Part shown: positions 991 through 33,317 of the stretch, in pieces
How positions within the stretch are numbered: the stretch's first letter is position 1
How the letters are laid out: each line of letters opens with the position of its first letter
NCBI GenBank assembly: GCA_018902385.1
Contig: JABSSW010000091.1
Location: 1 to 45,997 of the forward strand
Direction: 5' to 3'
DNA: 45,997 bases
From: Physcia stellaris
Taxonomy: Eukaryota; Ascomycota; Lecanoromycetes; Caliciales; Physciaceae
The notes under the pieces: generated by a model
Seen by the model: the letters and a program-made list of their open reading frames with translations, nothing else
Databases searched by the model: none
What the model was told of the DNA's origin: nothing
Translations under genes and position numbers: made by a program

Positions 991-1590
991 TTTCACTTCA
1001 TTCATAACAAATATCGATTTGAAAAGCAAAATTCAAACGCGAATTTAAATTATGTAAACTAATTATTCAACAGAACTAACGTTGTGTCTAAATGACTGTG
1101 ACGTTGTTGTTCACAAACATTTTCAGAATTTTTCGAACAAAATGAATATTTTTCATTTGAAAAATTATTCGTTTCGCATGAATCGTTTCTTGATGAATCA
1201 TTTCATAAAAATTAATCATCAAAATAATGCGCAAAAATAATGCATTTGATTTATTTTCAAACATTTTTGTGACAAACGTTTCGATATTTTCTTGCAAAAT
1301 TTCAAAATCGATATCTGAATTTTGACATTTTTCTTTATGTTTTGCATCATTTTTCTCACAAATTTCGCGAACGATTTTTTTGCAATTAATAATTCAATGA
1401 TTTTTTGAAAACGTTTAATTTCGCGCAATGCAATCATTTCGAATTTTGTTCGCTTGTGCTTTTATTGATGTGTTAATCAATATTCGATAACGCATGATTT
1501 GAATGCATTATCGATTTGTTCGTCATTTTTTTTTTAATCAATGATTTCAAGCGTTTTGCGATTGACTTTTTGCTCGACTGAATTGCAAAT

Positions 1591-1695
1591 TTGAGCGCAA
1601 AAAACTTGAGCGCAAAAGATTTGAACGCAAAAAACTTGAACGCAAAAGATTTGAACGCAATAAACTTGAACGCGAAAAATTTGAACGCGATAAAA
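1591..1695. repeat. 15-bp minisatellite in reading frame (copy A)
   Basis: About seven copies of a 15-bp unit of the form TTGAACGCAAAAGAT. The unit length is a multiple of three, so it is open on both strands. Read on the plus strand it gives the pentapeptide pattern A-K-[ND]-L-[NS]; read on the minus strand it gives A-F-K-[FS]-F. Since the flanking exon-like sequence is on the minus strand, that reading is more likely. Units differ by GAG/GAA and ACTTG/ATTTG, both fitting C-to-T change before T. Confidence 0.7.
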
Positions 1696-2279
1696 ATCAA
1701 TCTTTGTGACTTTTTGACTGACGTTTTGTTTTTGTTCACATCAATGTCATTATTCATTCGTCGATTTGCTTTTCTCATGCGACGTTTTTCGATTTGTTAA
1801 TTTGTGCATTACTTTGACGCATTATTCGATTTATTCAAAATTCGAATATCGTTATCGTCATTCGTTTCATTATCGTCAAAATCATCATCATCGAATTGAT
1901 TTGCATTCAAATTTTCATTTTCATCAAGTTTTTTTTCATTCGAAATATTGTTTTCGACATTTTTCTGATTTTCAAATTTTTGAATCGTTTTCATTGCGAA
2001 CTTTTTTGAAATTTTCGTATTTTTAACAGTTGTTATAATTTGTTAATTTATGCATTATCTTCATGCATTATTTGATTTATCAAGAAAAAAACTACTATTA
2101 TTATTGATATTATTATTGACATCAATGATTTTATCATTTTTCGCTTTTTCAGATTTCGTATCGATTGTCGTTTTAAATGTTCGCATCACGTTTTCAAAAC
2201 ATTAAATTTGAACGATTGAATATTCGTCATAAACGAAACAAACAAATCAGTTTTCGCGAACATAAATTCTGAAAGTTGT

Positions 2280-2318
2280 TAATTTATGCATTATTTTCAT
2301 GCATTATTATTTATTCGT
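2280..2318 (-). repeat. Recurring intron-like element (representative of about 14)
   Basis: Read on the minus strand, the element is AATAATGCATGAAAATAATGC followed by ATAAATTAAC and, here, a short tract ending CTTTCAG. Related copies lie near 1489-1526, 1797-1838, 2041-2080, 2493-2535, 2899-2931 and 3137-3166 in copy A, and 4602-4640, 4886-4921, 5127-5166, 5384-5425, 5560-5600, 5964-5993 and 6203-6232 in copy B. The 5127-5166 copy begins GTAAAT (a GTAAGT hit before T would read so), and the 5560-5600 copy keeps an ACTAAC branch-like motif. Spacing is mostly 200-400 bp. They could be repeated introns or another dispersed element. Confidence 0.4.
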
Positions 2319-3229
2319 GTTTTGAACATTTTTCGAATTATCATCAATATTATTTTCGTTATTTTCAGTGTTTGCTTGAAAATCGACAACATTTCGAAAT
2401 TGATTTATGAAATTGATAACATCGATGTCATTTGATGAAAACATGATTCAATTTTTGTGATTTGAATATAAATTGAAATGTTTTAATTAATGTTAGTCAA
2501 CGCATTATTTTCATGCATTATTTTATTTATTTATTATTGTTACAAATGAATATTCAATAAAATTGTCGATGCGTTTTATCGAAATTTGTTCAACAATCAA
2601 TAAATTCATTTCATTGCGATTCAAATTTGTTTTATTTGCAAACGTTGCAAAAGTATTGATGCGATCGTGTTGAATATTTGATTAAATGTTTTGCATCGAA
2701 ATATTGTTCTTGATTTCGACGTTTAAATTTTTTCGATAAACGCAACAGTCGCGTGTCGACAATTTTCGATCGACTTTTTATAACACTTTCAGTTTTTTTT
2801 TTCGATACTGATAAATCACTTCGCATATTCGATTATCTTTTTGTGTAATATTCGTTACTTTTCGCTTCATCATTTACGTTGTGAATACTTTAAAATTGTA
2901 TGCATTATCATATCGCATTATCGATGCTAATCATTTTTATTGCAAATAGATTTTCAAACTTGACGATTAAACATTATTTTGTATTTTCACGTTTGTTTTT
3001 TTTCGTTTTCAAATATGATTCAATTGTTTATCGCATGACGTTTGCTAATGATTTCAATCACAAATTTGTTTTCAATTTTGTCGATCATTTCGTATTGATT
3101 CATATTCGACGTACGTTTTGAACATTGTTCAATAATGATGCATTATTTTGTCGCATTATCGTGTTGATATTTACATTCAAAATGTTCGAATTCGCACAAT
3201 TTACATTTGTTAAAATTTATTCGACGAAT

Positions 3230-4059
3230 TCAAAAAATATCGTTAATCGCGAAAAAAAAAAGCATTGATCGAATATTCAAATCAAACTGTACAAAGCACA
3301 AAATGTCGACAATGTCGTTGTGTTCAAATTCAAAAAAAATTTGATGAAAATTGCTGTTTGATTTGAATTTGATGAAAAAAATCGCAAAATTTTGAAAAAA
3401 AATGATAAAAAAAAAATGTTCGATGCACGTATTGAAAACGACAATCATGATAATGCAATCGAATAATGCATATAAAAATTGCGATTTCTAATTAATTTTA
3501 AACGTATTTTTTGAAAGATGAAATTTATCAACAAAATAAAAAAAAATTCGACGAACAAACACGACAAAACGATGCAAAAAAAAATGCAATCGAAATCATA
3601 CGTCGAACAGCAAACTTCGAATTTGCGCAGCAATCGATGAATTCTCAATGTCAAAATTTGTCAAAATTTGTTGATTTCATTAATGATTCACTTTAAATGC
3701 AAAACGATGACGACATTGAACGCGTGCAAAGCGCAATAAAAAAATATTTGTATTCAATGATGAAATTGATTGCGCAACGCGTTCTTTATGACGATATGAA
3801 AATTCGCGCATTGAAAACGACGAATTTTGTTGACGCGATAAAAAAAATGCAAAAAACAATTAATGATTTTGTTTTTTCGCACAATGCGAAAAATCGAAAT
3901 ATTAAAATCGATTTTTTCAATGCGATCAAAAAGAAGAAAAATGCAAAAAACGACGACGATGACGAAAAGAAAAACAACGTGAAAAAATTCGATGACGAAA
4001 ACGAATTCGAAAACAGCGAAAATACGAACGATAAAAATTTCATAATGTTCGATTTTTAA
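3230..4059 (+). pseudogene. Decayed D/E/K/N-rich gene, plus strand (copy A)
   Basis: No family recognised. Coding-like segments are 3371-3466 (charged, ending NDNHDNAIE), 3511-3696 (begins DEIYQQNKKKFDEQ) and 3697-4059. The last contains a basic/amphipathic part (IKKYLYSMMKLIAQRVLYDDM), then an acidic tail with a DDDDE run and a C-terminus FIMFDF. Frame 1 is interrupted by TAA at 3694-3696. In copy B the same place reads TAG followed by TTTCAG, preceded by CACTAATGATT, which resembles an intron branch site and 3' splice site; copy A would have lost the AG. The minus strand of the same stretch is also open but is hydrophobic and lacks the local codon habit. It is transcribed away from the minus-strand remnant. 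Confidence 0.4.
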
Positions 4060-4237
4060 ATTGACTAAATAACGAAAATGCATTATTATCATGTATTATC
4101 ATTTAATTTTCAATTCACGCATGACAAATATTGATATGAAAAGCAATTCAAACACGAATTCAAATTATGTAAACTAATTACTCAACAAAAATAACATTGT
4201 GTCTAAATGATTGAAACATTGTTATTCACAGACATTT

Positions 4238-5900
4238 TCAGAATTTTTCGAACAAAATGAATATTTTTATTTGAACAATCATTCGTTTCGCATGAATCGT
4301 TTTTGCATTAATCATTTCATAGAAATTAATCAACAAAATAATGCGCAAAAATAATGCATTTGATTTATTTTCAAACATTTTTGTGACAAACGTTTCGATA
4401 TTTTCTTGCAAAACTTCAAAAATCGATGTTTGAATTTTGACATTCTTTTTTATGTTTTGCATCATTTTTTTCACAAATTTCACGAACGATTTCTTTGCAA
4501 TTAAAAATTCAATCGTTTTTTGAAAACGTTTGATTTCGCGCAATGCGATTATTTCGAATTTTGTTCGTTTGTGCTTTTATTGATGTGTTAATCAATATTC
4601 GATAACGCATGATTTGAATGCATTATCGATTTGTTCGCGATTTTCTTTTTAATCAATGAACTCAAACGTTTTGCGATTGATTTTTTGCTCGATTTACTGA
4701 CAGATTTGAACGCGAAAAACTTCGACGCAAAAGATTTGAACGCAAAGAATTTGAACGCGAAAAGCTTGAACGCGATCATGTTCATTTTTAGTCGCTTTGT
4801 GATCGACGTTTTGCTTTTGTTCACATCAATGTCATCATTCATTTGTCGAATTTGTTTCTTTCATGACGCGTCTTCGATTTGTGAATTTGTGCATTATTTT
4901 GACGCATTATTCGATTTATTTGAAATTTGATCATCATTTTCGAACTCAGTATGAATAATAACAATATCATGAATATCGAATTTGTGAACAATTTTGATTT
5001 CATTTTCATCAAATATCTTTTCATTCGATTTATCGTTTTCGACATTTTTTCGATTTTCAGACATTTGAAATGCTGATATTTCGAATTTTTTTTGAATGTT
5101 TTCATTTTCAGCAATTGCGATGATTTGTTAATTTATGCATTATCGTCATGCATTATTCGATTTACAAAACGAAAAATCATTATGATTATTAATATCAACG
5201 ATTTCATTATTTCGCGCTTTTTCAAATTTTTTATCATTAGCAAATTCAATAAACATTTCAGCAACGATTTTCGACTTAAGTTTTCGAACAACGTTCGCAA
5301 AAACGTTTCAATTGATCGACGAAATATTGATTGAAAACGGAACAAACAATGCAATTTTTTCAACAAAACGTTTTATCATTTGTTAATTTATACATTATCT
5401 TTTTGCATTATCATTTTTATCAATGTTCACATTTTTCGTTGAAATATCATCAACAATATTCTCATCGTTTTCATTCATCGTCATAACAATAACAATTGTT
5501 GACTGAACGTTTTGAAAATCTTTAAACTTTGAATGAACGTCGAGAAATTCTAAATTTCGTTAGTTTATGCATTATTTTCATGCATTATTTTATTTATCTA
5601 ATGTTGCTACAAATGAAAATTTAGTAAAAATGTCATTGATTACAAAGTTAAACATGCGATGAATCGATTGTTGCTCATCAATCAATAAACTCACTTTTTC
5701 GCGATACAGACTTGCATTATTTGCAGACGTTGCGAAAATATCGATGCGATCGTGTTGAATGTTTGATTAGATTTTTTGCATCGAAATATTGCTTTTAATT
5801 TCGACGTTTAAATTTTTTCGATAAACGCAACAATCGCGTGTCGACAATTTTCGATCGACTTTCTATAACACGTTCAGTCTTCTTTCTCTCGATATTGATA
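4238..5900 (-). pseudogene. Decayed split gene, disordered N/D/K-rich product (copy B)
   Basis: Counterpart of the minus-strand remnant in copy A. The clearest block is 4543-4238, which keeps REIKRFQKTIEFLIAKKSF and reads on through ENIETFVTKMFENKSNA further than the copy A version. The acidic block near 5050-4905 ends in NKSNNASK exactly as in copy A, just before the intron-like element. The block at 4842-4588 ends in SIMHSNHALSNID in both copies. This conservation across two damaged copies suggests the duplication happened when the gene still encoded protein. Function unknown. Confidence 0.4.
4706..4780. repeat. 15-bp minisatellite in reading frame (copy B)
   Basis: Four to five copies of the same 15-bp unit seen at 1591-1695, here with variants such as TTCGACGCAAAAGAT. 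Copy number differs between the two duplicates, so the array has expanded or contracted since duplication while staying in multiples of 15 bp. Confidence 0.65.
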
Positions 5901-6299
5901 AATCATTTGTCAAACCTGATTATTTTCGTGTGTAATATTCGTTATTTTTCGTTTCAAAATTGAATGCATGATCATATCGCATTATCGATGTTAATCAATT
6001 TCATTGCACACAAGTTCACAAACTTGACGAATAAACATTAATTTGAATTTTCAAATCTGATTCATTTTTCGTTTTCAGATATGATTCAATTGTTTATCGC
6101 AACACGTTTGCTGATGAATTCAATCACAAATTTGTTTTCAATTCTATCGATTAATTGATATTGATTTATACTCGACGTACGTTCTGAACATTGTTCAAAG
6201 ATGATGCATTTTTCTGTCGCATTATCGTGTTGATATTTATATTCAAAATGTTCGAATTTGCACAATTTACATTTGTTAAAATTTATTCGACGAATTCAA

Positions 6300-7113
6300 A
6301 GAATGTCGTTAATCGCGAAAGAAAAAAAAATTGATCGAAAATTCAAGTCAAACTTTACAAAACACAAAATGTCGACAATGTCGTTGTGTTCAAATTCAAA
6401 AAAAACTTGATGAAAATTATTGTTTGACTTGAATTTGATGAGAAAAATCGCAAAATTATGAAAAAGAATGATAAAAAAAAAATGTTCGATGCTCGTATTG
6501 AAAACGACAATCATAATAATGCAATCGAGTAATGCATATAAGAATTGCGATTTTTAATTAATTTTTAACGTGTTTTCTGAAAAATGAATTTTATCGACAA
6601 AACAAAAAAAAATTCGACGAACAAATACGACAAAACGATGTCAAAAAAATGCAATCGAAATCATACGTCAAACAATTAATTTCGAATTTCGCAACAATCA
6701 ATGAGTACTAAATATCAAAATCTGTTGATTTCACTAATGATTCACTTTAGTTTCAGAACGATGAAAACATTGAACGAACGCAAAACGCAATAAAAAAATA
6801 TCTATATTCAATGACGAAATTGATCGCGCAACGCGTTCTTTATGATGATATGAAAATTCGCGCATTGAAAACGACGAATTCTGTTGACGCGATGAAAGAA
6901 ATGCGAAAAACAATTAAAAATTTTGCATTTTCGCACAATGCGAAAAATCGAAATATTAAAATCGAATTTTTCAATGCGATCAAAAAGAAAAAAAATGCAA
7001 AAAACGACGACGATGACGAAGAAAAAAACAACGTGAAAAATTTCGATGACGAGAACGAATTCGAAAATAGCGAAAATACGAACGATGCAAATTTCATAAT
7101 GTTCGATTTCTAG
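6300..7113 (+). pseudogene. Decayed D/E/K/N-rich gene, plus strand (copy B)
   Basis: Counterpart of 3230-4059. The longest uninterrupted frame is 6751-7113, preceded by a TAG stop at 6748-6750 at the position equivalent to the TAA in copy A. The two copies agree in the amphipathic segment (KLIAQRVLYDDMKIRALKTT), the acidic run and the FIMFDF end, with conservative replacements, which supports past coding. The part upstream of 6748 is more damaged than in copy A. No domain recognised. Confidence 0.4.
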
Positions 7114-7224
7114 TTTGACTAAATAACGAATATGCATTATCATGATACATTATCACTTGTCTGTGAATAATGATCAATTTTTCTTTTTTTTCAAGTTGCA
7201 TTATCAAAATTCATTATTCATTAT

Positions 7225-7560
7225 TCATGTCTAAAACTTCTTGTAGTATTTTTTTCTCTTCAGTAAAGTCTGTAAGAATAAAATCTATTTTTATTATTTT
7301 TATCAATAGTATTTCAAGTCAAGTCAAGTTTTTCAAATCAAGTTTCAAATTCAAGAAAAAAAGTTTGATTTGACGTCAAAACAAATTTCAAATCGAATAT
7401 GTCGACTTGAGTTTGAACTTGACATTAAAATCAAAGATTTGAACTTGACGTCAAAACAAATTTCAAGCTTTATATTTCAGACTTGATTCGATTTTTTCGA
7501 GTCAAATTCTTGATCTTTTTCAAGCTTTTAACTCGGCGCGATCAGTCTAGTCAAATGACA
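7225..7560. other. Unmutated patch with repeated TGACGTCA palindromes
   Basis: Unlike both neighbours, this patch is full of CT and AG dinucleotides (for example CTTCTTGTAG and TTCTCTTCAG). It contains CAAGT/ACTTG-rich sequence and a direct repeat of TTGACGTCAAAACAAATTTCAA around 7370 and 7445, 75 bp apart, each with the palindrome TGACGTCA (7371-7378 and 7446-7453), a sequence bound by bZIP factors of the CREB/ATF type. Whether these are real binding sites is unknown. No gene is seen. Confidence 0.5.
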
Positions 7561-10500
7561 ATTTTATTGTCAATTAATCAACAACAAACATTTTGCATGA
7601 AATTTCGCGATTTATTTGCGTTTATGATGAATTTATTTACGATCGTCGTGCAAATCAAAACAATCGTTAATGAAATCGTTCAAATAATATCATTTCAAAA
7701 AAAAATATTATTTCAAAAAAAAAAAACAAATGTTTTCGCAATCATGATGAATTTTGCGCAATATTGACGTATGATGCAAAACAATCGTTCAAAATCATTT
7801 TTCAACATTGATGTTTTTTTACATTTTTCGACAATGTTACAACGCGACGATTCGTTTCAAAATTACAAAAACATAAATTGAAACAATCTATTTAACGATC
7901 AATTTTCTTTGTATCGTTTCGATATCGTCGTTTTCGAAATTTTTTTCGAGCAAACACAAATCAATTTTCATTGAAAATTGCGTCGACGTTTCGATGTCGA
8001 CGATTTCGTTACGTATTTCAAAACGTTAAAAAATTTAAAAAACGATTTGAATTTGTCGTATGTTTCATTTTATTTTCAACGTGTGATGAACGATTCAAAA
8101 ATATTCATCGACGAACACAAATCGCATGAAATCATGAATTTTCGTTTAAAAATCGATTTCAATGATCGAAATTGAAATTACAATATTCACGTTTTTTTTT
8201 CTCACATGAAATTTTCGAAATTTCGTCATTTGAAAAATGCAACGCAAAAAATTTGAATAAATCAAATTGTATTATTTGCGATTCGCGCAAACGTGTCGAT
8301 CAATATTCGAACGCGTCATTTTTTCAATTTTGAAATCGTCAAAATTCAAACGCACAATAAAAAAAAAATTTACATGTATGATGTCGATCATTTCATGAAC
8401 AATTTTCGATTCGTTTCAATCGACAATTTTGTCGTTTTTTGAATTCAAATTGTCATTTTGATCAACGAATTTGCGAAATTCAAAAAATTCGTGTTGATGA
8501 TTTTTGATTGAAATCAAAAATTGCATTTTCAACGATCAATTTTAAAAAAAACGCGAACGATTTTCATCATTCATTTGAAACAACGTTTTCGCATTTTCGA
8601 CGAATTCATGAACGAAATTTGAATTGATTTCGAAATAAAATATATTTTTTGTTTGTATCATGTCGATTTCGTTGTCAAAAACATCACGTTGTTGTGAAAA
8701 ACATCGTGTTTCGAACATTGAAAAACGTTTTTTCACAACAAAATTAACGTCGTTCGTCGAGTTCGCAACGCGACGTATTCATTTTTGTTAATTTGTGACG
8801 TCGAATTTTGTTTCGTCGAAATGACATTCATTAACGTTTTTCGAACAAACGATGAACAAACGTTTCACAAAATTTATGTCATGATTCGAAATTATTAATT
8901 TATTTTCGTTCGAAATGTCAAATTTTTCGTCAACACATATTTCGAAAATTTGTCGTTTAACGACGAAAAATTCGATCGATAACACATCGTTAATCGTCGA
9001 AATGATTTGATTTTTAAAAACGTGCACAACAAATTTAACGATAATCAATCGACATCGTTCAAATTCAAAATTTATCAATTCAAAACGTAACGAACAATCA
9101 AATATCGTATCGATATTTCATTGATTGACGCGCACAATTTTTTTTATACGACGTCAATCGAAATTATCAATGATTTACGCAAAAAATATCGTTTACGTTT
9201 GTCAATTTTTCAAAAATTGAAATCGATGCACAATTTCGTCGAAATTGATTTTTGATCATCATGAATTATCAACGATTCGAAAATTCGAACGTCACATTTT
9301 TTTGTTTGTGAATTTTTTTTCGCAAATTTTTTTCGTCATCGTTCATATTGAATTTTGTTCAAAAAAAAATCGACATTTTCATCACGATCACGTTCAATCG
9401 TTATTTTTTATTCATCGAAATCATGATCATTCAATGTCACAATGATTTCAATGATTTGAAATTCGTTTTCGTTGACGAACAACAACGATACAATTTCATA
9501 ATCAACGTTTTTTTTTCGAATTTTTCAATTTATCGTGAACGATATTTTGTTTGTCACGATGAACGAATTGTGACAAAATATCGTTAAACGACGCGTCGTT
9601 CGACAATCACATTTATTCACGATCGATTGAAATTTTGATTCGTCGAATGTCAAAATCGTTCGACGACGCGAATTCAATTATAAAAAATACATTCAAAAAT
9701 ACGATTATTTTTTTTGTTCGTTCATTTCATCATTTGAAAATTCGATTTTTTGTTCGTTTTCGATTTTCGTTTTGTTTTTCGTTTGATTTTTGTTGTCGAT
9801 GACATGCAAAATCGTTTCAAAAATTGTCGTGACATCGTTGCGATTATAATCAAACAAAACAGCACATTTAAATTGTTTCGCGATCGAATAAAAGTTTTTA
9901 TTTTCGATTATGACGACAAAAACGATATGATCAATCACAAACGCGTTCAAAAATCATGACAATTAAAATCGAATTGATTGTTCAATTTTACATTCAAAAT
10001 ATTTGAAATATTTTCAAAACACGAATTACGAAACATATCAAAATTTCGTCGAACGACAAAAACAAAATCGTCGTTTCATGTTTCGATTGTCGAAAAAAAA
10101 AATTGCAAAATTTCATGATTTCATTTATGTTTTTGTCGTCAAATTGCTCGATGATGTCAAATTTAAAATTGTTTTTAAACGATTATTCAAAAAATACGAT
10201 TCGAACAACAACAAAACGAACGTTTTTGAAAAATATTACGTCAATGACAAATGAATCGATCGTTTTCGAATTTTTTTCGAATAAAACGATTTTTTTCGCG
10301 ACAAAAAACGCATTTGAAACAAAATTCGATTTCGTCAATTTTTGAATCGATTGCATTACGTCGTTTTCATTTTAAAATTTTTTGTCGACGACACGTTTCA
10401 AAAAATTTTTGTTTTTGTCGTTTATCAAAAATTTTTTTGTATTTCATTTTTCGATTGCGATTATTTGTTCATCGAATTGAAATTCAACAAAAACAATAAC

Positions 10501-10970
10501 ATTCAACGTGTAATCGAAATCGTCGATCAAATTGAATTGAAACGAACGAATTGATTTATCGTTTGTTTTTTTTTCGACACAACAAACGCGTATCGAAATC
10601 GCATTATGACGATGTTTCGATTTTCGTTTACGATACAAAAAAAAATAACGCAATGAATTCAACATCATATTCGCACAAAAAAATTAATCACGATCATTTT
10701 TACGAATGCATGAATCGTTTATTTTCGAAATTCAACAAATTTGCATTTGCAATCAATTTTACGATGTCGACGCGTTCAAAAATTTCATGTCGATATGACA
10801 AAAACAAAAAAAACAAAATCGAACGAAATCAATGATCAATCAAAATTTCGACGAACGAAAACGACGAAAAAAAAAAAAAAAAAAAAATCGAAAATACGTT
10901 TGTCATAACTTAATAAATTAAAATTTCAATTGAATTCAATTTTCATTTTTGTTCAACACATTATCACAAT

Positions 10971-11160
10971 TCATTGCATTATTTATTTTGAATACATATC
11001 GTTTGCAAACAATATGTTCATCGCATTATTAATATTTATTTTGAATACATATCGTTTGCAAACAATATGTTTATTGCATTATTTATTTTGAATACATATC
11101 GTTTGCAAACAATATATTTATCGCATTTTGATATTTCGTTTACAAACAATATGTGCATAA
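10971..11160. repeat. Tandem array around GTTTGCAAAC (47-53 bp unit)
   Basis: Three full copies and a partial one of GCATTATTTATTTTGAATAC plus ATATCGTTTGCAAACAATATG. The palindrome GTTTGCAAAC sits at 11001-11010, 11054-11063 and 11101-11110, and a variant GTTTACAAAC at about 11138-11147. The unit also carries GCATTAT, the motif of the intron-like elements in 1-7 kb. Confidence 0.85.
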
Positions 11161-13710
11161 TTGTTCATGTTGATTACGAACATCATGACGTAACGTACAC
11201 GAAATTTTTTTTTTGATTTTTAGCGAAACATTCAAATATAAATGCAAAAATGTTCATTTGAATATTTTCATTTTTCAAATCATGTCGAAATCGATTTGTT
11301 AAAATTTTTCAATATAAAAATTCGAATTCATTATCGATTCAATGATATTGTTCAAATTTATCGAATTAAATTTCAATAAAAATTTTTCATTAACAAAATT
11401 TTGTTTATACGTAATCGTTTGTTTGCGCATTGTAAACAACGTTGAATTACAAAATCAAATTGTCGTAATGATTTGCATCATTTATTGATTTATTCGTATC
11501 ATTAAATTTTCGATTCAAAACGTTTTCAATGAAATTGATTTGAAATTGTTTTTTGTGACGACATCAAATCGTTTGATTTTCAATTTCAACATTTGATCGA
11601 ACGAATCATTTAAAATTCACTTTTTTGAAACGTTTTTCGATAATATTCAATTTGAAATTCATATGAACAAAATTCGAATATTTTCGAAAAACGTTTTCGA
11701 ATAAATTGATTTGAAAACATCAATCGTTTTTCACATTTCATTTTGTATCATTAATATTTTTCAAAAAAATCACAATAATGAAATTCGCGTTTTTCAAATA
11801 ACAATTTTTTTTTTTTGATTTTTTTGATCGAATCGTTATTAATATATCGTCGTTGACATTTTCGACATTATCAGCGATTTTATTTTATTTTCGTGCATAT
11901 TTCGAATTTTCAATATTTGTTATTATTCACGTCACGAACATTTTTGCGTTTTTTATTTGAAAAACGCGTTTTTTTTTTTCATACGTCGATCGTTTAAACG
12001 ATATTCGTTTTGACATTTTTTTTATCGTTTGATGACGTCAAGCGCGACAACATCGTAATTGAATTCGTATTACAAAATTTTTGAATTTCATTTTATGTTC
12101 AAATCACGTATACACATTTCGAATGTCAATTATCGCATTTTCGACAATCAAACAAATTTCAAAAATTCATGAAATGTATCAATGTTTATTGATATTTTAT
12201 TTTAATTTTTTACGTTTATTATTTGAAAAATGTAAAAAAATCGAATGTCATGTTCATTTTCATTCGAAATTCAATCATTTTATGAAAATTTTCGAAAATT
12301 CGAAAATTTTTTAATTTGCACGTCATTTTATTATCAATTGTTTTTATGCGACAACGTTTTACAAAACATACAATTTTCGTAATTTTTTGCGTTGTATATT
12401 CAACAACGACGACAAACATAAAAATCGCAACAATACGATATGTGTCGATTTCGAATTATTCACACATTTAGTTGAAAATTTAAACGAACATATTTCGTGT
12501 CGTATACAAAACATTTTACATTTTCAACGAATCGCGTCGTTCAATCGTTCGCGATAAAATATAATAAAACGATTATTCAATCACGATAATAACGACGAAC
12601 AATTTTTCGATTTTTATCGACATTCACGAAAACGTTGATGCGCGATTGTTGATTCGTTTCTGTGTCGATAATGAAATTATCACGAATTCAATTCGAATTT
12701 TCAAAACGATTGATTTTTGACATAAAAACATAATGACGATTGATTTCTGTTCATGACGAAATTCATTGAACGAAAAATTAACATGTCAATTGCGATAAAT
12801 CAAAAAAATTCGAAATTATATTTTACACGTCGAACACATTTTTTTGAAATTTATTTCATAACATTTTCGACAAATTGAACTCGATTCATATCGACATTCA
12901 TGTTCACATGATTTGATTTCTGATAAACAAATTTGACATTTTCAATAAAACGAAACGCGAATTTTTTCATCAAACGATTGCAAACACAAAAAACATTTCT
13001 CGTTCGAAATTTTTTTCGTGAACATTTGATATTATCAATCGTCGTTTTATCACACGATCGAAAAAAAATTTACATTTTTCGTTCGTTTCGATGTCGATTC
13101 ATTTTTATCGTCGAACGTTCAAATTGACAAAATGAAATTGATTGACATTGTTATTTGCGACGTCAAAAATTTCGAATTATCGTTTGTCAATATTTATTTG
13201 TCGATTTCACATTCATTTCAAAAATTTATCTCGAAAACTCAATGTTTTCGATTGTTTTCTTTTCGTTTTCGAACGTTTTCTCGTCGTTTTCGAACGATTT
13301 CTTTGCGTTCAATTTTTCAAATGTCGAATTCAATTTATCGTCAATTCAATTCGTTTCATCAACAATCAATTGATCATTCATTCATTCGCGACGATTTTCG
13401 AAACGAAAAGCGATACATTTTTTAAACGAATTTGAAATTTATCATTTTCATACAAATGCGCGTATTTGTTTAATATTCGTTTTCGAATGACATTATTTTT
13501 CTTGATGAAATTGTCGATCACATAATTTTCGACAATTTGATTTAACGTTTTTTTTTTTTTTCGCAAACGACGACGATATTTTGCATTTTGAAACGCAATT
13601 TCATGTAAATAAATTTGATTTGTTTGTCAAACGAACATTCGAAAAAAAAACAATCGAAAAATTGTTTAAACAGAATTTTGTTTGCAAATTAATCGACGCA
13701 CAAAAATAAA

Positions 13711-13989
13711 TATCGTTTGCAAACAACAAATGAAAAATAAATATCGTTTGCAAACAACAAATGAAAAATAAATATCGTTTGCAAACAACAAATGAAAAAT
13801 AAATATCGTTTGCAAATAACAAATGAAAAATAAATATCGTTTGCAAACAACAAATGAATGATAAATATCGTTTGCAAACAACAAATGAAAAATAAATATC
13901 GTTTGCAAACAACAAATGAAAAATAAATATCGTTTGCAAACAACAAATGAAAAATAAATATCGTTTGCAAACAACAAATAAAAAATGTC
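13711..13989. repeat. 31-bp tandem array with GTTTGCAAAC
   Basis: Nine copies starting at 13711, 13742, 13773, 13804, 13835, 13866, 13897, 13928 and 13959, exactly 31 bp apart. Each unit holds the palindrome GTTTGCAAAC within TATCGTTTGCAAACAACAAA. Copies are identical except for a few single bases (for example GCAAATAAC in the fourth). Because 31 is not a multiple of three, three overlapping minus-strand frames stay open by chance and are not genes. Confidence 0.95.
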
Positions 13990-15440
13990 GTTTGTCGACA
14001 ATCGTTATACAAAAAACATTAATTTCGACATTTGTCATGATGATTTTTTCGACAATTGTCGATTAATGAATTCGAAAATGTTTGTTATCGATGTTTGAAT
14101 TTCGATTGATTAAAAACGTTATTTTCGATTTCATGAAAAATGAAACGTGAAAAAAAAAAAACGATTAATCAACAAATTTGAAACGTTTAATGATTTTCGT
14201 CGAATGACACGCGTGTATCAGAATTTCGCGTTAAAACATTTGATCGTTTTCAACGTAACAATCGTTTCATTTACAATTATGATGTTTTATTTTATATTTT
14301 ACGTGATTTCGTTATTGAATGTATTCGTTTCATTGCACAAACGTCAATTTTAATCGTCGCGTTCAAAATGATATTGTTTCGATCAACACAATTTGTTGTT
14401 CAAACAATCGAAAATCAAAAACACAATTTTAATTTTTTTTTTTCACGCGATCATTTTGATCAATTGCGATTTTGATGAAAACGATAAACATTTCGCGACA
14501 TTCGAAATTTTCTCATTTGTATTGCGCAATTTTATTAAAATTTCATCAACAAAAAAAAATTCAACGTTTGTTTCAAAACGTGCAAATCATTTTAATCAAT
14601 TTCATCGATTTCATTTTTCGCAACGACGAGAAAATCATTTTTGATGATTGAAACGCGAAATTCAACGATTTTTTTCGTTCACAAACATCGATTCGCGTTG
14701 ATGATAACGAAATACAAAATTGTTGAAAATTTTGAATATTATTTTTCGTTTAATGCAATTGTTCGTTTTTTTTTATGCGAAAACGACACAAACAATGATT
14801 CAAATCATTTTTTTAAATCACAATCAACGACGAATTTTCAATAATCAAAACGAATCGAAATTTATATTCGCGTCGATAATTTGAATGTTTACACACACAA
14901 TCGACAAAAATGTATCAAATTTCATGTCATTTCGTTTTTCATTTCATTTTACGACAAACGATTTTTTAAATGTTGAAAACGAATAAATTCGTTCGACATA
15001 TACAAATTCACAAATTGATCAACACAATGTTGTTTGATTGCATTCGTTCAGTTTTTTTTCTCGACAAATCGTTTTTTTATTTACATTTTTTTCAATTTTA
15101 AACGAAATATTTCATGACAATACAAATAATCGTGTCGATAAATCAACACGAAAAACTTTTAATTGAATTTTTTCGTCAAAATTATGTTAATTATGATCAA
15201 AATCACATCACGACGAACATCGAATTAAATCGTATAAATTCAAATTCATAAACGCGCACATTATCGACGATACGATCGTTACGAATCAACAATCACATGC
15301 ACGTTCAAAATTCGCGTCATTTTCGAAATTTTTTCGACATGATTTTCATATTTGTCAATGTTCGAAAATGTCGACACATAACAACGATTTTCAATTTGCG
15401 ATGTTGAAATGCGATCGCGAATTGAATTTGAATACATATT

Positions 15441-15493
15441 GTTTGCAAACAACGTTTTTATCAATTGTCGATCGATTGTATGTTGTTTACAAA
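15441..15493. repeat. Dispersed GTTTGCAAAC pair
   Basis: GTTTGCAAAC at 15441-15450, preceded by AATACATATT as in the 11-kb array, and GTTTACAAAC at 15484-15493. They lie outside any tandem array in the hypermutated block. Confidence 0.6.
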
Positions 15494-16439
15494 CGACATG
15501 TTCAACGTAAAATTGAATGAAATTTTAAAATTATGAAATTTACAACGAAATGACGATTGATCGAAATCGCATTATTTCACATGAATATCGATGTTCGACG
15601 TGTGAATTTCATTTCGAAATTGAAATGAATAATTTGTTATACAAAATTTTTTGATAATTTTGATTGATCGTTTCAACATTTTGTAAATTCGTTTGATTGT
15701 TTCAAATGATAAATGTTTGATATGTGATTTAACGTCATTATTCGAATTTATTCGCAATTGATAAACATCGTATGAAATCACAAGACGAAATTGTTCAATA
15801 TATCAAATGTTTCTATCACGTGAACAATTATAGATTTCGATCATTTCGTTTTCGTAAACGATTTCTGTCGAAATGATTGCATGATTGCAATGAACAATAA
15901 TTTTTTTTGTTTTGTCGTTTTTGTTTTCGTACGATTTTCATTCACGAATTATTATTTGTTATACAATGATTTCATCATTTATTCAATCAATAATCGTCAT
16001 TTATTTTTCTATATGTGATTTCAAATTTCAATTCACGATCAAATCGTTTTTTTTCAATCAATGTTATTTGAATTGATCAAATAAAATTCAACGCAAACGC
16101 GCGTTTTCGACGCGTTTAACATCGAAAAACGTCAAAACATTCAACACAACGTCAACATTTTTTAATTTGCAATTTCGATTCACGAAATCGACAACGTGTT
16201 ATCATCGATAAATCAATTCAACGTTCGAATTCAATCAAACATGTTCGCGATTTTATTTTGTTTTTTGCAAAAACGTAAATAATTTTCACGTTGTTTTCAT
16301 AAATCAATTAAATCATCAAAAAACACAATTGTTTCATGTCGAATCAAATTCACATCACGATTTTACGAATTCGAAACGAACAAACGAAAATTTAAACAAT
16401 GAAAATTTTCGTTGTTGTCGACAAACATTCAATGACGTC

Positions 16440-17070
16440 ATTTTTATTCTCGTCGATTTTCAATAGAACATTTTCTATAAAAAAATGTTTTGCGTTTTCT
16501 TTTGAAATTTTAAGTTAATCGAATAAGAAATCACAGAATTTTCAAAATTCAAATCGCGAACATCAAAATCTGATTATCGTATTGCGTTTATGTAATTTTT
16601 TGCAACTTGCACATCAATCAACAATCTCATATGATTTTTAATTGTTTAATTCAAATTGTAAAACAGAATAAGCGCAATTCAACGTTGCAATAAAAACAGA
16701 AATCGATTCATTATCGCATTAGTTTTGAAATTTGAAAAATTATGTTGTTGTCAATAATGTGTTTGTCGAACAACTTTCGCAATCTTATCAGATCTGATTC
16801 TAATTCTGAATATCAATTCGCAAATTTTTTTTTAAAAAAAATTTCGAACAAATTTGTATTTCATACAAAAAATCTGTTTTCGTAATCGTGTTGCGAAAAA
16901 CAGTCGAAACGTCGTCAATTTTTCGAAACAAATTCACATGACGAAAAACGACAAACGTTTAAATTCAATATCGAAATCAACATTTATAAATTGTTTGATT
17001 TCGATATTTCAAAAAGAAATCGTCGTCGTCACGAATTATTCGCATGTTATTAACATAATTCAAATTCGAA
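16440..17070. other. Partly unmutated patch, no clear gene
   Basis: CT and AG reappear here (TTTTCTTTTG, AAGTTAATC, CAATCTCATATG), ending the saturated block. A 91-codon plus-strand frame (16854-17129) is open but has no motif and runs into the downstream triplicate, so I do not call it a gene. Confidence 0.45.
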
Positions 17071-17665
17071 CAACGTCATTTTATCGAATAAAATCTGATC
17101 ATCACGTTTCGAAATTTTTTTTTTTTTGATTTTTCATTCATTATCATTCATTTCGACGTCGATTTCAGATTTTTTCTTTATATATCGCTTTATTCAAAAA
17201 AGATGAAAAAAAAAAAAAAAAAATTTTGATATAATTATTGTTTGCAAACAAATTCAAACGCGTTAAAAATTTTAACAACGTCATTTTATCGAATGAAATT
17301 TGATCATCACGTTTCGAAAATTTTTTTTTTTTGATTTTTCATTCATTATCATTCATTTCGACGTCGATTTCAAATTTTTTCTTCATACATCGTTTTACTC
17401 GAAAAAAATGAAAAAAAAAAAAAAAAATTTTGATATAATTATTGTTTGCAAACAAATTCAAACGCGTTAAAAATTTCAACAACGTCATTTTATCGAATGA
17501 AATTTAATCATTACGTTTCGAAATTTTTTTTTTTGATTTTTCAAACATATCATTCAATTCGATTTCAGATTTTTTTTTCGTTCATCGTTTTATTCAAAAA
17601 AAAATGAAAAAAAAATGAAAAAAATTTTGATATAATTATTGTTTGCAAACAATTTTAAACGCGTT
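17071..17665. repeat. 205-bp tandem triplicate
   Basis: Three copies starting with CAACGTCATTTTATCGAAT at 17071, 17277 and 17479. Each has a T run followed by GATTTTTCA, an A run, then ATAATTATTGTTTGCAAACA and AAACGCGTTAA. GTTTGCAAAC lies at 17240-17249, 17444-17453 and 17641-17650. Copy 1 keeps ATCTGATC where copies 2 and 3 read ATTTGATC and ATTTAATC, a stepwise C-to-T/G-to-A series. Confidence 0.85.
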
Positions 17666-17933
17666 AATTTCAACGAAACGATAACGATTTCGATTCGATT
17701 TCATTCAACATATTTTCGATTTCGTTTTTTTTTTTTTTTTTTTTTTATTTTATATTTTTATCATATCAATCATTTTCGTTGATTCGATTCAAAATCACGT
17801 TTTGTTTTTTGTTTTGTTTTTCGTTACATTTATTATTTCATACATTATCTCATACATATTTTTGTTGCATTGAATTCGAAATTTGATTAATTGAAATCAA
17901 TTTGATTTTGAAATTTCAAATGAATTTCAAAAT
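17666..17933. other. AT-rich spacer with long T run
   Basis: Contains a long uninterrupted T run near 17726-17747 and then AT-rich sequence up to the first palindrome unit. No gene or repeat seen. Confidence 0.5.
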
Positions 17934-19929
17934 CTAACATCCACTCTAACGGTACCGGTGCACCGGTACCGCAAATTTTGGTGAGTGGGGTTAGGGTTAA
18001 CTAGCTCCGGTACCGATTTGAAATGTTCCAGCGGTACCGGTGCGAGTTCTCGATGAAAACTTAACATATGACAAATCTGAAAGCAGTTCTGAAATCAGCA
18101 TGAAAAAACGCATCATTTTCATATATATAATGTCCCGATTGGGCTAGCGGTTGATTTTATAAAAAATTTTCAAGCAAGATTTTCGAAAATTTCGACTAAG
18201 TCCCGAGATTCTTGCGGTACCGGTGCTGTTTCTCGATGAATACTTGACGTATCGTAATTTTGAGACCAGTTTTGAAATCTACAAGAAAAACGGAATAAAA
18301 AAGTGGTGGGGTTGAGCCGGATCGGGTTAGCGTCTGATTTGTTACGAATTTTTCGAATTTTGATAACTCGAAAATTCGACTAAGTTTCGAGATTCTTGCG
18401 GTACCGGTGCTGTTTCTCGACGAATATTTGACGTATCGTAATTTTGAGACCAGTTTTGAAATCTACAAGAAAAACGGAATGATAAAGTGGTGGGGTTGAG
18501 CCGGATCGGATTAGCGTTTGATTTGTTACGAATTTTTCGAATTTTGATAACTCGAAAATTCGACTAAGTTTCGAGATTCTTGCGGTACCGGTGCTGTTTC
18601 TCGACGAATATTTGACGTATCGTAAATCTGAAATCAGTCTTGAAATCTACAAGGAAAACTGAATGAAAAAGTGGTGAGATTGAACCGAATCGGGCTAGCG
18701 GCTAATTTGTTACGAATTTTTCGAATTTTGATAACTCGAAAATTCGACTAAGTCCCGAGATTCTTGCGATATCGATGCTGTTTCTCGACGAATATTTGAC
18801 GTATCGTAATTCTGAAATCAATTTTGAAATCTACAAGAAAAACTCAATAAAAAAGTGGTAAAATTGAGCCGGATCGAGTTAGCGACTAATTTGTTACGAA
18901 TTTTTCGAGTTTTGATAACTCGAAAATTCGATCAAGTTTCGAGATCTTTGCGGTATCGATGCTGTTTCTCGATGAATATTTGACGTATCGTAATTCTGAA
19001 ATCAGTTTTGAAATCTACAAGAAAAACTCAATGATGAAAAGATGAAGTTGAATCGAATCGAGTTAGAAACTAATTTGTTACGAATTTTTCGAGTTTTGAT
19101 AATTCGAAAATTCGATTAAGTTTCGAGATTCTTGCGATATCGATGCTTTTTCTCAATGAATATTTGACATATCGAAAATTTGAAATCAGTTTTGAAATTT
19201 ACGTTAAAAATAAAATAAAAAAGTGATAATGTTTAGTCAAATCGAATTAGTGTTTAATGTTTTACGAATTTTTCGAATTTTTTTATCTCGAAACTTTAAT
19301 TAAATTTCGAGAATTTTGCGATAACGCAATCGTTTCTAAATTTGTACATGAACGTTAATTGAATTAAAATAATAAAATAACAAATATATTAATATCAAAT
19401 CAACAAAATTCATGCACGAATATAATTTAATTCATGCACGAATATAATTTAATTCATGCACGAATATATTTTAATTCATGCACGAATATATTTTAATTCA
19501 TGCACGAATATATTTCAATTCATGCACGAATATAATTTAATTCATGCACGAATATAATTTAATTCATGCACGAATATAATTAAAATTCATGCACGAATAA
19601 ATAAAAATTCATGCACGAATATAATTTAATTAAATGCACGAATATATTTTTAATTAAATGCAACGAATATATTTTAATTCATGCACGAATATTTTTAATT
19701 CATGCACAAATAAAATTTAATTCATGCACGAATAAATAAAAATTCATGCACGAATATAATTTAATTCATGCACGAATATATTTTAATTCATGCACGAATA
19801 TATTTTAATTCATGCACGAATATAATTTAATTCATGCACGAATATATTTTAATTTATGCACAAATAAATAAATATTCATGCACGAATACATTTATTAACT
19901 TTAACAATACAAATTTACTTTTACACAAA
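17934..19929 (+). repeat. Telomere-relic unit 1
   Basis: First of six head-to-tail units in the same orientation as the chromosome end. Parts in order: palindrome and TTAGGG relic (17941-18000); eight subrepeats of 184 bp with box starts at 18033, 18216, 18400, 18584, 18768, 18952, 19136 and 19320 (last partial); and a minisatellite of about 22 bp, AATTCATGCACGAATATAATTT (19405-19895). Subrepeats decay from left to right. No coding frame. The later inverted minisatellite and the CA-rich tail present in units 3-6 are missing here. Confidence 0.9.
17941..18000 (+). other. Palindrome plus relic telomere, unit 1
   Basis: Perfect 20-bp palindrome GGTACCGGTGCACCGGTACC at 17951-17970 (22 bp with the flanking C and G), enclosed by CCACTC on the left and GAGTGG on the right, followed by GGGGTTAGGGTTAAC. 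The TTAGGG strand points toward the real telomere. Confidence 0.9.
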
Positions 19930-21512
19930 TCTAACATTCACTCTAACGGTATCGGTGCACCGGTACCGCAAATTTTGGTGAGTGGAATTAGGGTTAACTA
20001 GCTCCGGTACCGATGAAATGTTCAGCCAGCGGTACCGGTGCGAGTTCTCGATGAAAACTTAACATATGACAAATCTGAAAGCAGTTCTGAAATCAGCATG
20101 AAAAAACGCATCATTTTCATATATATAATGTCCCGATTGGGCTAGCGGTTGATTTTATAAAAAATTTTCAAGCAAGATTTTCGAAAATTTCGACTAAGTC
20201 CCGAGATTCTTGCGGTACCGGTGCTGTTTCTCGATGAATACTTGACGTATCGTAATTTTGAGACCAGTTTTGAAATCTACAAGAAAAACGGAATAAAAAA
20301 GTGATGGAGTTGAGCCGGATCGGGTTAGCGTCTGATTTGTTACGAATTTTTCGAATTTTGATAACTCGAAAATTCGACTAAGTTTCGAGATTCTTGCGAT
20401 ACCGGTGCTGTTTCTCGACGAATATTTGACGTATCGTAATTTTGAGACCAGTTTTGAAATCTACAAGAAAAACGGAATGATAAAGTGGTGGGGTTGAGCC
20501 GGATCGGATTAGCGTTTGATTTGTTACGAATTTTTCGAATTTTGATAACTCGAAAATTCGACTAAGTTTCGAGATTCTTGCGGTACCGGTGCTGTTTCTC
20601 GACGAATATTTGACGTATCGTAAATCTGAAATCAGTCTTGAAATCTACAAAAAAAACTGAATGAAAAAGTGGTGAAATTGGGCCGAATCGGGCTAGCGGC
20701 TAATTTGTTACGAATTTTTCGAATTTTGATAACTCGAAAATTCGACTAAGTTCCGAGATTCTTGCGGTATCGATGCTGTTTCTCGACGAATATTTGACGT
20801 ATCGTAATTCTGAAATCAATTTTGAAATCTACAAGAAAAACTCAATAAAAAAGTGGTGAAATTGAGCCGGATCGGGTTAGCGGCTAATTTGTTACGAATT
20901 TTTCGAGTTTTGATAACTCGAAAATTCGATCAAGTTTCGAGATCTTTGCGGTATCGATGCTGTTTCTCGATGAATATTTGACGTATCGTAATTCTGAAAT
21001 CAGTTTTGAAATCTACAAGAAAAACTCAATGATGAAAAGATGAAGTTGAATCGAATCGAGTTAGAAACTAATTTGTTACGAATTTTTCGAGTTTTGATAA
21101 TTCGAAAATTCGATTAAGTTTCGAGATTCTTGCGATATCGATGCTTTTTCTCAATGAATATTTGACATATCGAAAATTTGAAATCAGTTTTGAAATTTAC
21201 GTTAAAAATAAAATAAAAAAGTGATAATGTTTAGTCAAATCGAATTAGTGTTTAATGTTTTACGAATTTTTCGAATTTTTTTATCTCGAAACTTTAATTA
21301 AATTTCGAGAATTTTGCGATAACGCAATCGTTTCTAAATTTGTACATGAACGTTAATTGAATTAAAATAATAAAATAACAAATATATTAATATCAAATCA
21401 AAAAAATTCAACGAATATAATTTAATTAAATGCACGAATATAATTTAATTAAATGCGCGAATATATTTTAATTGATGCACGAATATATTTTAATTAATGC
21501 ACGAATATATTT
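19930..21512 (+). repeat. Telomere-relic unit 2 (more mutated, short)
   Basis: Same order as unit 1 but with only about 100 bp of minisatellite (21405-21510). Its head is damaged: the palindrome reads GGTATCGGTGCACCGGTACC (19948-19967), CCACTC reads TCACTC, and GGGGTTAGGG reads GGAATTAGGG. Every one of these is a C-to-T before C or the complement. Confidence 0.9.
19938..19999 (+). other. Palindrome plus relic telomere, unit 2 (mutated)
   Basis: Left palindrome arm and telomere relic are altered by transitions at CC/GG sites only; the right arm CACCGGTACC is intact. Confidence 0.85.
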
Positions 21513-24190
21513 CTAACATCCACTCTAACGGTACCGGTGCACCGGTACCGCAAATTTTGGTGAGTGGGGTTAGGGTTAACTAATCCGATATAAAAAAACG
21601 AATCGAAAATAATTCAATAAAGCGATACCGGTGCGAGTTCTCGATTGAAAACTTAACATATGACAAATCTGAAAGCAGTTCTGAAATCAGCATGAAAAAA
21701 CGCATCATTTTCATATATATAATGTCCCGATTGGGCTAGCGGTTGATTTTATAAAAATTTTCAAGCAAGATTTTCGAAAATTTCGACTAAGTCCCGAGAT
21801 TCTTGCGGTACCGGTGCTGTTTCTCGATGAATACTTGACGTATCGTAATTTTGAGACCAGTTTTGAAATCTACAAGAAAAACGGAATAAAAAAAGTGGTG
21901 GGGTTGAGCCGGATCGGGTTAGCGTCTGATTTGTTACGAATTTTTCGAATTTTGATAACTCGAAAATTCGACTAAGTTTCGAGATTCTTGCGGTACCGGT
22001 GCTGTTTCTCGACGAATATTTGACGTATCGTAATTTTGAGACCAGTTTTGAAATCTACAAGAAAAACGGAATGATAAAGTGGTGGGGTTGAGCCGGATCG
22101 GGTTAGCGTTTGATTTGTTACGAATTTTTCGAATTTTGATAACTCGAAAATTCGACTAAGTTTCGAGATTCTTGCGGTACCGGTGCTGTTTCTCGACGAA
22201 TATTTGACGTATCGTAAATCTGAAATCAGTCTTGAAATCTACAAGGAAAACTGAATGAAAAAGTGGTGAGATTGGGCCGAATCGGGCTAGCGGCTAATTT
22301 GTTACGAATTTTTCGAATTTTGATAACTCGAAAATTCGACTAAGTCCCGAGATTCTTGCGGTATCGGTGCTGTTTCTCGACGAATATTTGACGTATCGTA
22401 ATTCTGAAATCAATTTTGAAATCTACAAGAAAAACTCAATAAAAAAGTGATGAAATTGAGCCGGATCGGGTTAGCGGCTAATTTGTTACGAATTTTTCGA
22501 GTTTTGATAACTCGAAAATTCGATCAAGTTTCGAGATCTTTGCGGTATCGATGCTGTTTCTCGATGAATATTTGACGTATCGTAATTCTGAAATCAGTTT
22601 TGAAATCTACAAGAAAAACTCAATGATGAAAAGATGAAGTTGAATCGAATCGAGTTAGAAACTAATTTGTTACGAATTTTTCGAGTTTTGATAATTCGAA
22701 AATTCGATTAAGTTTCGAGATTCTTGCGATATCGATGCTTTTTCTCAATGAATATTTGACATATCGAAAATTTGAAATCAGTTTTGAAATTTACGTTAAA
22801 AATAAAATAAAAAAGTGATAATGTTTAGTCAAATCGAATTAGTGTTTAATGTTTTACGAATTTTTCGAATTTTTTTATCTCGAAACTTTAATTAAATTTC
22901 GAGAATTTTGCGATAACGCAATCGTTTCTAAATTTGTACATGAACGTTAATTGAATTAAAATAATAAAATAACAAATATATTAATATCAAATCAACAAAA
23001 TTCATGCACGAATATAATTTAATTCATGCACGAATATAATTTAATTCATGCACGAATATATTTTAATTGATGCACGAATATATTTTAATTAATGCACGAA
23101 TATATTTCAATTCATGCACGAATATAATTTAATTCATGCACGAATATAATTTAATTCATGCACGAATATAATTAAAATTCATGCACGAATAAATAAAAAT
23201 TCATGCACGAATATAATTTAATTCATGCACGAATATATTTTTAATTCATGCACGAATATATTTTAATTCATGCACGAATATTTTTAATTCATGCACAAAT
23301 AAAATTTAATTCATGCACGAATAAATAAAAATTCATGCACGAATATAATTTAATTCATGCACGAATATATTTTAATTCATGCACGAATATATTTTAATTC
23401 ATGCACGAATATAATTTAATTCATGCACGAATATATTTTAATTTATGCACAAATAAATAAATATTCATGCACGAATACATTTATTAACTTTAACAATACA
23501 AATTTACTTTTCACAAATCGATTTAATTAAATGCGCGAATAAATAAATATTCGTTTGAATAAATAAATATTCGTGCATGAATAAATAAATATTCGTGCAT
23601 GAATAAATAAATATTCGTGCATCAATAGATAAATATTTTTGCACGAATAAATTTAATATTTGTAACAATACAATTTAATTTTTACACGAATCAATTTAAT
23701 TTTCGCACGAACAAAAAAATTCGTTTGAATAAATAAATATTCGTGCATTTGAATAAATAAATATTCGTGCATGAATAAATAAAATAAAATGCATGAATAA
23801 ATAAATATTCATGCATGAATAAATAAATATTAAAACGAATAAATTTAATAAATTTAATAATAAAATTTTATTCTTTTTGCAATATATAAACAACGAAATT
23901 TTGTCTTTAATTCTTTTTCAATCGTTCGCATTTTTCACATTTCGCACACATTTACACACGAAACATACATCGAAACACATATTGACAACAAATTTACAAA
24001 ATACACATACGAAACACACATATAAAACATACATATTCAAACGATATACACAAAACACAAACACGAAACACAGCACGAAAATATAAAAAAACATATACAC
24101 AACACAGAAACACATTTACAATTTTCACACGAAATTTACGCGAAATACAACACAAAAACATTAAAAAATCTTTGAACGTTAAGTTTATTT
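21513..24190 (+). repeat. Telomere-relic unit 3
   Basis: Head (21520-21580), 184-bp subrepeats (from 21806), ATGCACGAAT minisatellite (about 23000-23480), a second minisatellite with the reverse-complement core ATTCGTGCAT (23520-23850), and a CA-rich tail of ACACACGAAACAC-like sequence (23930-24180) ending AACGTTAAGTTTATTT. The sequence just after the head differs from the others (TAATCCGATATAAAAAAACG in place of TAGCTCCGGTACCGAT). Confidence 0.9.
21520..21580 (+). other. Palindrome plus relic telomere, unit 3
   Basis: Intact 20-bp palindrome at 21530-21549 and GGGGTTAGGGTTAAC at 21566-21580. Confidence 0.9.
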
Positions 24191-33200: not shown

Positions 33201-33293
33201 TACACAACACAATACACATTTACAATTTTCACACGAATTACATACGCGAAATACAAACAAAAACATTAAAAATCTTTGAACGTTAAGTTTATT
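30219..33293 (+). repeat. Telomere-relic unit 6
   Basis: Head (30227-30287), subrepeats (from 30505), a forward minisatellite that becomes very disordered after 32000, a regular reverse-core minisatellite (32610-32940) and CA-rich tail (33020-33280). It ends AACGTTAAGTTTATTT like units 3-5, but instead of a seventh head it runs into the microsatellite upstream of the helicase relic. Confidence 0.88.
30227..30287 (+). other. Palindrome plus relic telomere, unit 6
   Basis: Intact palindrome at 30237-30256 and GGGGTTAGGGTTAAC at 30273-30287. The junction before it reads CATCCAATCTCTAAC instead of CATCCACTCTAAC. Confidence 0.9.
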
Positions 33294-33317
33294 TCAATTT
33301 GTTAATTTGTTTTTTTT

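Follow-up and report, generated by a model that had tools for sequence, protein, structure and literature searches.

Many repeats in the genome of the common lichen fungus Physcia stellaris have, by C-to-T change, lost almost all cytosines followed by a pyrimidine, at CpC first and at CpT second, while CpA, the usual target in fungi, and CpG are largely kept. The pattern resembles a type of genome defence already known from fungi, with a target preference that is new. We analysed a stretch of 45,997 nt (contig JABSSW010000091.1, here C91; hereafter the window) together with the 44 Mb assembly to which it belongs, starting from an 8.9 kb block at 7560-16440 for which a RIP-like process guided by the 3' pyrimidine had been predicted from the letters alone (RIP, repeat-induced point mutation). 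The change is found on both strands, the affected samples are repeats and the sampled genes are spared, and we have hardly any doubt about the context rule CpC>CpT in these repeats. As its cause we consider it likely that a RIP variant with a CpY target (Y being C or T) is run by an enzyme of the RID/DIM-2 family (DNMT1 type).

Neither CC nor GG occurs in the 8881 bp of the block, where about 331 were found on permuting its own bases 200 times (minimum 288), and CT and AG add up to 38 (23 and 15) against an expectation of about 880 in the same shuffles (minimum 820). The dinucleotide odds were 0.00 for CC/GG, 0.04 for CT/AG, 1.31 for CA/TG and 3.77 for CG, in accordance with the scarcity of CpC and CpT and the common CpA and CpG described in the original prediction. 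Its detailed counts were also reproduced, with no CC, GG or CT and a single AG in 8521-8880, and with 11 CT in the comparison exon for which at least ten had been given. The depletion extends further than the 8.9 kb stated, as the stretch free of CC and GG is 10.4 kb long, between 7535 and 17941. In the flank at 1-7.5 kb there are 0 to 2 CC/GG per kb, with CT partly kept (odds 0.15-0.49).

For a directed comparison we used an element of normal composition on contig C12 (L039), whose open frame spans 901 codons or more and which we take from its pol frame to be a Gypsy-type retrotransposon, and a mutated copy on C95 (L043) that is 80% identical to it. The C95 copy is one of 39 matches at 69-80% identity that the family has besides L039 and a copy on C5 (L038). 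The two copies differ by 438 substitutions, 408 of them C>T or G>A and 16 transversions. From L039 to L043 the change to T affected 246 of 298 CpC (0.83; bootstrap interval 0.77-0.88), 144 of 305 CpT (0.47; 0.40-0.54), 11 of 284 CpA (0.039; 0.014-0.066) and 6 of 304 CpG (0.020; 0.006-0.036), and the intervals of CpC, of CpT and of the CpA/CpG pair do not overlap one another. These values support a C-to-T change guided by a 3' pyrimidine. The base 5' of the cytosine has little effect, since the changed fraction stays at 0.80-0.89 for CpC (ACC 62/70, CCC 48/60, GCC 68/84, TCC 68/84) and at 0.40-0.55 for CpT across the four 5' bases. In a runs test by strand, mutated sites in L043 were no more clustered than the targets themselves (z -3.2 vs -4.0). 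As a control, the pair L039/L038, both of normal composition, gave 0.062 for CpC, 0.048 for CpT, 0.028 for CpA and 0.030 for CpG. These two copies are 96% identical, and recent transposition therefore seems to have largely escaped the process so far.

The context counts from L039 to L043 rule out TpCpG, APOBEC-like and ultraviolet (UV) contexts, and the view that neither CpA nor TpCpG targeting fits this residue holds well, with 11/284 CpA and 2/111 TCG changed. Editing of transposon DNA by an AID/APOBEC-type DNA cytidine deaminase would be expected to give C-to-T on mobile DNA, and the genome has eight matches to the deaminase fold PF00383. Such enzymes choose their target by the 5' base, whereas here that base matters little and the 3' base decides, and we regard this origin as very improbable. 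UV damage to dipyrimidines, in a lichen that grows exposed to the sun, is an even poorer candidate, with a practically negligible chance. In its favour, lichens live in the light and both CpC and CpT consist of two pyrimidines. UV mutagenesis has a hot spot at TpC, yet TCA changed at only 2/91 and TCG at 2/111 sites compared with 28/67 for ACT and 31/77 for GCT, and gene-like DNA beside mutated blocks elsewhere in the genome is normal, as described below.

Alignment of repeat families with tabulated transition contexts had been proposed as a check, and five copies of the block's repeat were aligned, namely the window copy and L033-L036, covering 6 of the 15 matching stretches; sites whose 3' base varies between the copies were counted separately. 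Summed over the ten pairs there were 3493 transitions and 421 transversions. Sites were variable at 559/566 CpT and 26/29 CpC, as against 207/1191 CpA and 65/1215 CpG, and when the window copy was left aside, the fraction of variable sites was 0.85 for CpC, 0.74 for CpT, 0.05 for CpA and 0.03 for CpG. CpC and CpT thus have high transition rates, and CpA and CpG low ones. Among the C/T pair differences CpT makes up 66%, CpA 25%, CpG 7% and CpC 2%, the last share being low because CpC is nearly exhausted while CpA sites are plentiful; a quarter of the differences at CpA implies that CpA is slow to change, not immune. Between the least mutated copy (L034) and the window copy, 6/6 CpC, 342/360 CpT, 129/1136 CpA and 25/1131 CpG were changed, and the CpA losses, which yield TpA, were most often in TpCpA (90/615). 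The predicted sparing is accordingly correct for CpG and mostly, not fully, so for CpA. The GC content of the block's copies is 27-33%, and that of other window stretches goes down to 0.13. Read by eye, a motif around ATCGTTTGCAAACAA recurs at about 13700-13985, near 11000-11130 and near 15430, forming a minisatellite of about 30 bp and scattered copies within the block.

Further repeats of the window and of the genome bear on the order of attack. In six units of the nested array at 17930-33297 the C/T pair-sites with equal flanks differ at 72/827 CpC, 10/1466 CpT, 6/1801 CpA and 5/2717 CpG; these units also differ by 196 transversions vs 216 transitions, and the array may represent the process at an early point. 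For L041, L042 and L043, which are moderately mutated, the CC odds are 0.07, 0.43 and 0.19 and the CT odds 0.39, 0.70 and 0.71. The CpC-led differences of the array and the lower CC than CT odds of these three imply that CpC is lost first. In the pair of direct copies at 984-7158, C/T differences with equal flanks fall on 101/122 CpT, 1/1 CpC, 39/314 CpA and 33/279 CpG, within a total of 276 transitions and 179 transversions. After CpC it is CpT that is lost, followed by some CpA, with CpG hardly affected. The family at window 1-1000, aligned in seven copies (L002-L008), agrees in trend (variable at 30/30 CpC, 834/996 CpT, 1381/5464 CpA and 644/3696 CpG); these copies are not relied on, as their alignment had 1.5-kb flanks that were not all homologous (8868 transversions, 7823 transitions).

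Physcia stellaris belongs to the Caliciales within the Lecanoromycetes. Its published genome is 46.57 Mb with 43.32% GC according to excerpts of its paper, PMC7513301, in the text of which the word RIP does not occur. We took 20 samples of 10 kb each at round positions within long contigs, and 17 of them were normal (GC 0.48-0.51, CC odds 0.86-1.05, CT odds 1.00-1.13). The other three (L022, L025, L030) turn sharply to GC 0.25-0.32 and CC odds of 0.00-0.08 per kb, and the gene-like DNA adjoining their depleted blocks has normal composition. CC odds lie below 0.3 in 16 of the 200 1-kb windows. From the GC of genes (0.495), of mutated DNA (about 0.28) and of the published whole (0.433), about 29% of the assembly may be affected, with the gene value taken from the long contigs sampled. 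The depletion is thus not a uniform property of the genome, as had been argued from the comparison exon, and genome-wide depletion as the cause is ruled out by the normal sampled genes. Depletion of CC and CT in genes and transitions that are even across contexts or led by CpA had both been named as observations that would tell against the prediction, and neither was found.

The affected samples were also searched for other copies. The block has 15 other matches of at least 1.5 kb at 82-95% identity; L030:1-8000 has at least 20 of at least 1.9 kb, all inside its first 6.9 kb, and L022:1-5000 at least 41. A gene-like control, L013:1000-9000, gave matches of just 48-111 bp. The block and two AT-rich samples are therefore repeats and the one gene-like control is not, the exception being L030 6875-8000, to which we return below.

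A CpY target has consequences for reading frames, as one round of mutation can make stops only through TGG to TGA, that is, by GpG-to-GpA at tryptophan (Trp) codons. Changing all CpY of the 901-codon frame in silico (721 sites) gave 10 stops, all TGA, while changing all CpA (339 sites) gave 46. In the genome the in-frame stops TGA/TAA/TAG numbered 250/33/3 in RVT_1 (150 matches, of 527 candidates), 401/101/3 in RVT_2 (137 matches) and 44/3/0 in DDE_1 (10 matches), and it should be kept in mind that transposon copies are mutually related and these counts not independent. TGA also leads out of frame in such DNA (573 TGA, 359 TAA and 6 TAG in the block); the stop-codon evidence is the in-frame TGA excess, which CpY targeting predicts. 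A bias that is almost too clean might raise the suspicion of an artefact of sequencing or assembly, or of a compositional constraint fixed in the element. We find this extremely improbable, as the same bias occurs in different repeats on several contigs and is graded between copies, the TGA excess obeys codon logic, and neighbouring gene-like DNA is normal.

Two features of classical RIP are absent. The L043 counts hold no preference for CpA, and the block has a TpA/ApT of 0.37 and a (CpA+TpG)/(ApC+GpT) of 1.30, where the usual thresholds are >=0.89 and <=1.03. None of the 16 mutated 1-kb windows passes both thresholds, and the two of the 200 windows that do have ordinary GC and CC. The usual composite index is -0.94 in the block and -0.58 in genes, so that the block appears less affected by RIP than the genes are. 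As TpA is depleted, CpA-directed RIP with overlooked products is ruled out.

A search for cytosine methyltransferases, advised in the original prediction, gave four PF00145 matches in three genes, one DIM-2-like (L010), one RID-like (L011) and a second RID-like (RID2, L009). L010 is without stops, and from residue 220 to residue 905 it matches PDB chain 9bap_A (E 2e-181), presumably Neurospora DIM-2. The motifs are PPCQFFSDAH and EQTSGL in L011, and PPCQSFSPAQ and EETFGL in L009. The L011 protein (P0121) is 100% identical, over the region searched, to P. stellaris G7Y79_00005g016670, and L009 aligns across the catalytic domain to a 524-residue Heterodermia protein when two short stop-bearing inserts, putatively introns, are skipped. 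A tree was built from 58 rows, comprising 53 of 239 distinct matches, two DIM-2-like matches and the three genes of this genome. It places L009 and its kin in a 13-member clade (support 100/100) that is separate from the L011 clade with Usnea and Xylona. Among the matches listed the RID2 clade has 29 members at 60-94% identity, Heterodermia included.

Methyltransferases of the RID/DIM-2 type read the 3' side of the cytosine, and we suggest that the agent would be a DNMT1-type enzyme of this set that works on paired repeats in one sexual cycle after another. Its specificity would probably have moved from CpA to CpY by a change in a RID-clade enzyme, the first candidate being the divergent RID2, with RID-like L011 and DIM-2-like L010 as alternatives. 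Frames would then be broken mainly by missense and Trp-to-TGA changes, and each mutation would yield roughly one tenth as many stops as under CpA targeting. More tentatively, we speculate that the divergent RID2 lineage might have come to recognise the base 3' of the cytosine in a new way, giving RIP at CpC and CpT.

Slow loss is the other way in which a methyltransferase could act, if a DIM-2-like or other enzyme kept CpC and CpT of repeats methylated and 5-methylcytosine deaminated over generations. The context rule alone does not separate a burst from slow decay, and a DIM-2-like gene without stops is present (L010). According to excerpts of a review, Neurospora DIM-2 methylation shares the non-CG sites, the lean to CpT and the targeting of repeats; it differs in acting in all CpN contexts without strong CpA/CpG protection (PMC13297926). 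In the P. stellaris repeats, by contrast, the sparing of CpA and CpG compared with CpC is about 20- to 40-fold. The 83% loss of CpC in L043 with 16 transversions per 438 differences further implies a process far faster than background, and we think slow loss unlikely.

Several observations weigh against the RIP-like explanation with a CpY target. L030 6875-8000 is depleted of CpY (CC odds 0.03, CT 0.34), and other copies of it were not found with 21 of 225 candidates scored; the process may have spilled over into flanking DNA here, or the stretch may be a repeat whose age prevents its detection. CpA accounts for 739 of 2968 C/T pair counts in the five block copies, chiefly via the window copy. 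The directed comparison stands on one mutated copy (L043), and the L039/L038 control is not quite flat, with 34/618 CpY vs 17/588 CpA and CpG (Fisher p 0.03). The enzyme, the timing and the pairing of repeats are things that we infer, and L011 and L009 are assumed by us to be RID-like from motifs and kin. RID itself is tabulated as without detected in vitro activity in the excerpted review (PMC13297926).

Table 1. Features of the window with their coordinates and the evidence for each.
Feature	Position	Strand	Evidence
Pair of direct copies (984-4104, 4101-7158) with about 81% identity, CC gone, CT partly gone	984..7158		Alignment
Stretch of 10.4 kb with zero CC and zero GG	7537..17940		Counts
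Dispersed-repeat copy in which C-to-T (G-to-A) change of CpC and CpT is close to saturation	7560..16440		Counts, repeat matches, alignment
Array of related, nested repeat units, parts GC-rich (about 0.38) and AT-rich (about 0.21)	17930..33297		Alignment
Helicase-like gene remnants, CC-depleted, open frames of 323, 332, 444 and 720 aa	33597..39814	+	Helicase_C over cut-off; OrsD (zinc finger) and DEAD below
Comparison exon	40194..40295		11 CT in 102 bases

Out of 12 frames of at least 90 aa listed for the block's repeat, seven open pieces were searched against Pfam, and none gave a match over cut-off. The frames of the helicase-like remnants illustrate that CpY-mutated genes can appear intact to a gene finder.

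The published statements cited here come from excerpts of the papers named. RIP in Neurospora follows the order CpA>CpT>CpG>CpC, and Trichoderma likewise has CpC last (PMC5496416). The process in P. stellaris is like RID-dependent RIP of Neurospora crassa in being C-to-T on both strands, in affecting repeats and sparing genes, and in the presence of RID-like and DIM-2-like genes. It is unlike it in following CpC>CpT>>CpA>CpG, by which the least affected context of Neurospora becomes the most affected one, and in that TpA falls in the repeats instead of rising. Change led by CpT has been described in N. crassa Tad1 copies, where CpA change is also raised, and in short ribosomal DNA repeats of Stagonospora nodorum, whose authors doubt that it is RIP (PMC2621366). 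An alignment in RIP-capable fungi had 'CpT to TpT' as the dominant form (PMC7882544). These cases share the CpT lead with P. stellaris, and the same excerpts do not list CpC among the leading targets (PMC2621366, PMC7882544). CpT is likewise a major target in Botrytis, Sclerotinia, Magnaporthe, Anisogramma and Colletotrichum truncatum, some families of the last being CpT-biased (PMC6180176); these differ in that CpA also leads, with CpC unmentioned in the excerpts (PMC4352252, PMC10998396, PMC6180176).

Among Lecanoromycetes, Cladonia rangiformis shares with P. stellaris the sharp AT-rich repeat blocks beside normal genes and the RID and DIM-2 homologues. Its transposon DNA peaks at about 16% GC, as against 27-33% in the block copies with CpA and CpG kept, and the term CpA does not occur in the excerpted account of its RIP (PMC12542154). 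The TpCpG RIP-like mutation of Microbotryum shares the C-to-T change in transposons and a rule set by the 3' base (PMC4352252), but in P. stellaris CpG is the best protected context, with TCG hardly touched. Preference for CpA is treated as the trait common to RIP, and in 2025 a kingdom-wide screen of 1,239 species came to the conclusion that it is shared by RIP-like defences (PMC12543289). In the titles, abstract openings and excerpts of the open-access literature on CpC/CpT RIP and lichen RIP we found no description of a pattern that takes CpC first and spares CpA. The process had been called previously undescribed, and within this literature that stands for the CpC-first pattern, not for CpT-dominant change, which has already been reported.

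A repeat with zero CC over 10 kb and most of its CpA kept suggests that the target choice of RIP can be rewritten, and two RID-like enzymes with one DIM-2-like enzyme offer a sequence contrast for finding the determinant of specificity. The usual composite RIP index is blind to CpY mutation, which the separate CpC/TpC and CpT/TpT ratios of RIPCAL would show (excerpts of PMC2621366). Caution is due in gene annotation, because CpY-mutated transposons keep longer open frames. If RID2 does drive this form of RIP, it would disable transposons mainly through mass missense and Trp-to-TGA changes, and it would be missed by the usual thresholds, which are built on CpA and TpA. Species that have RID2 and species that lack it would in that case provide a natural experiment on the determinants of RIP specificity.

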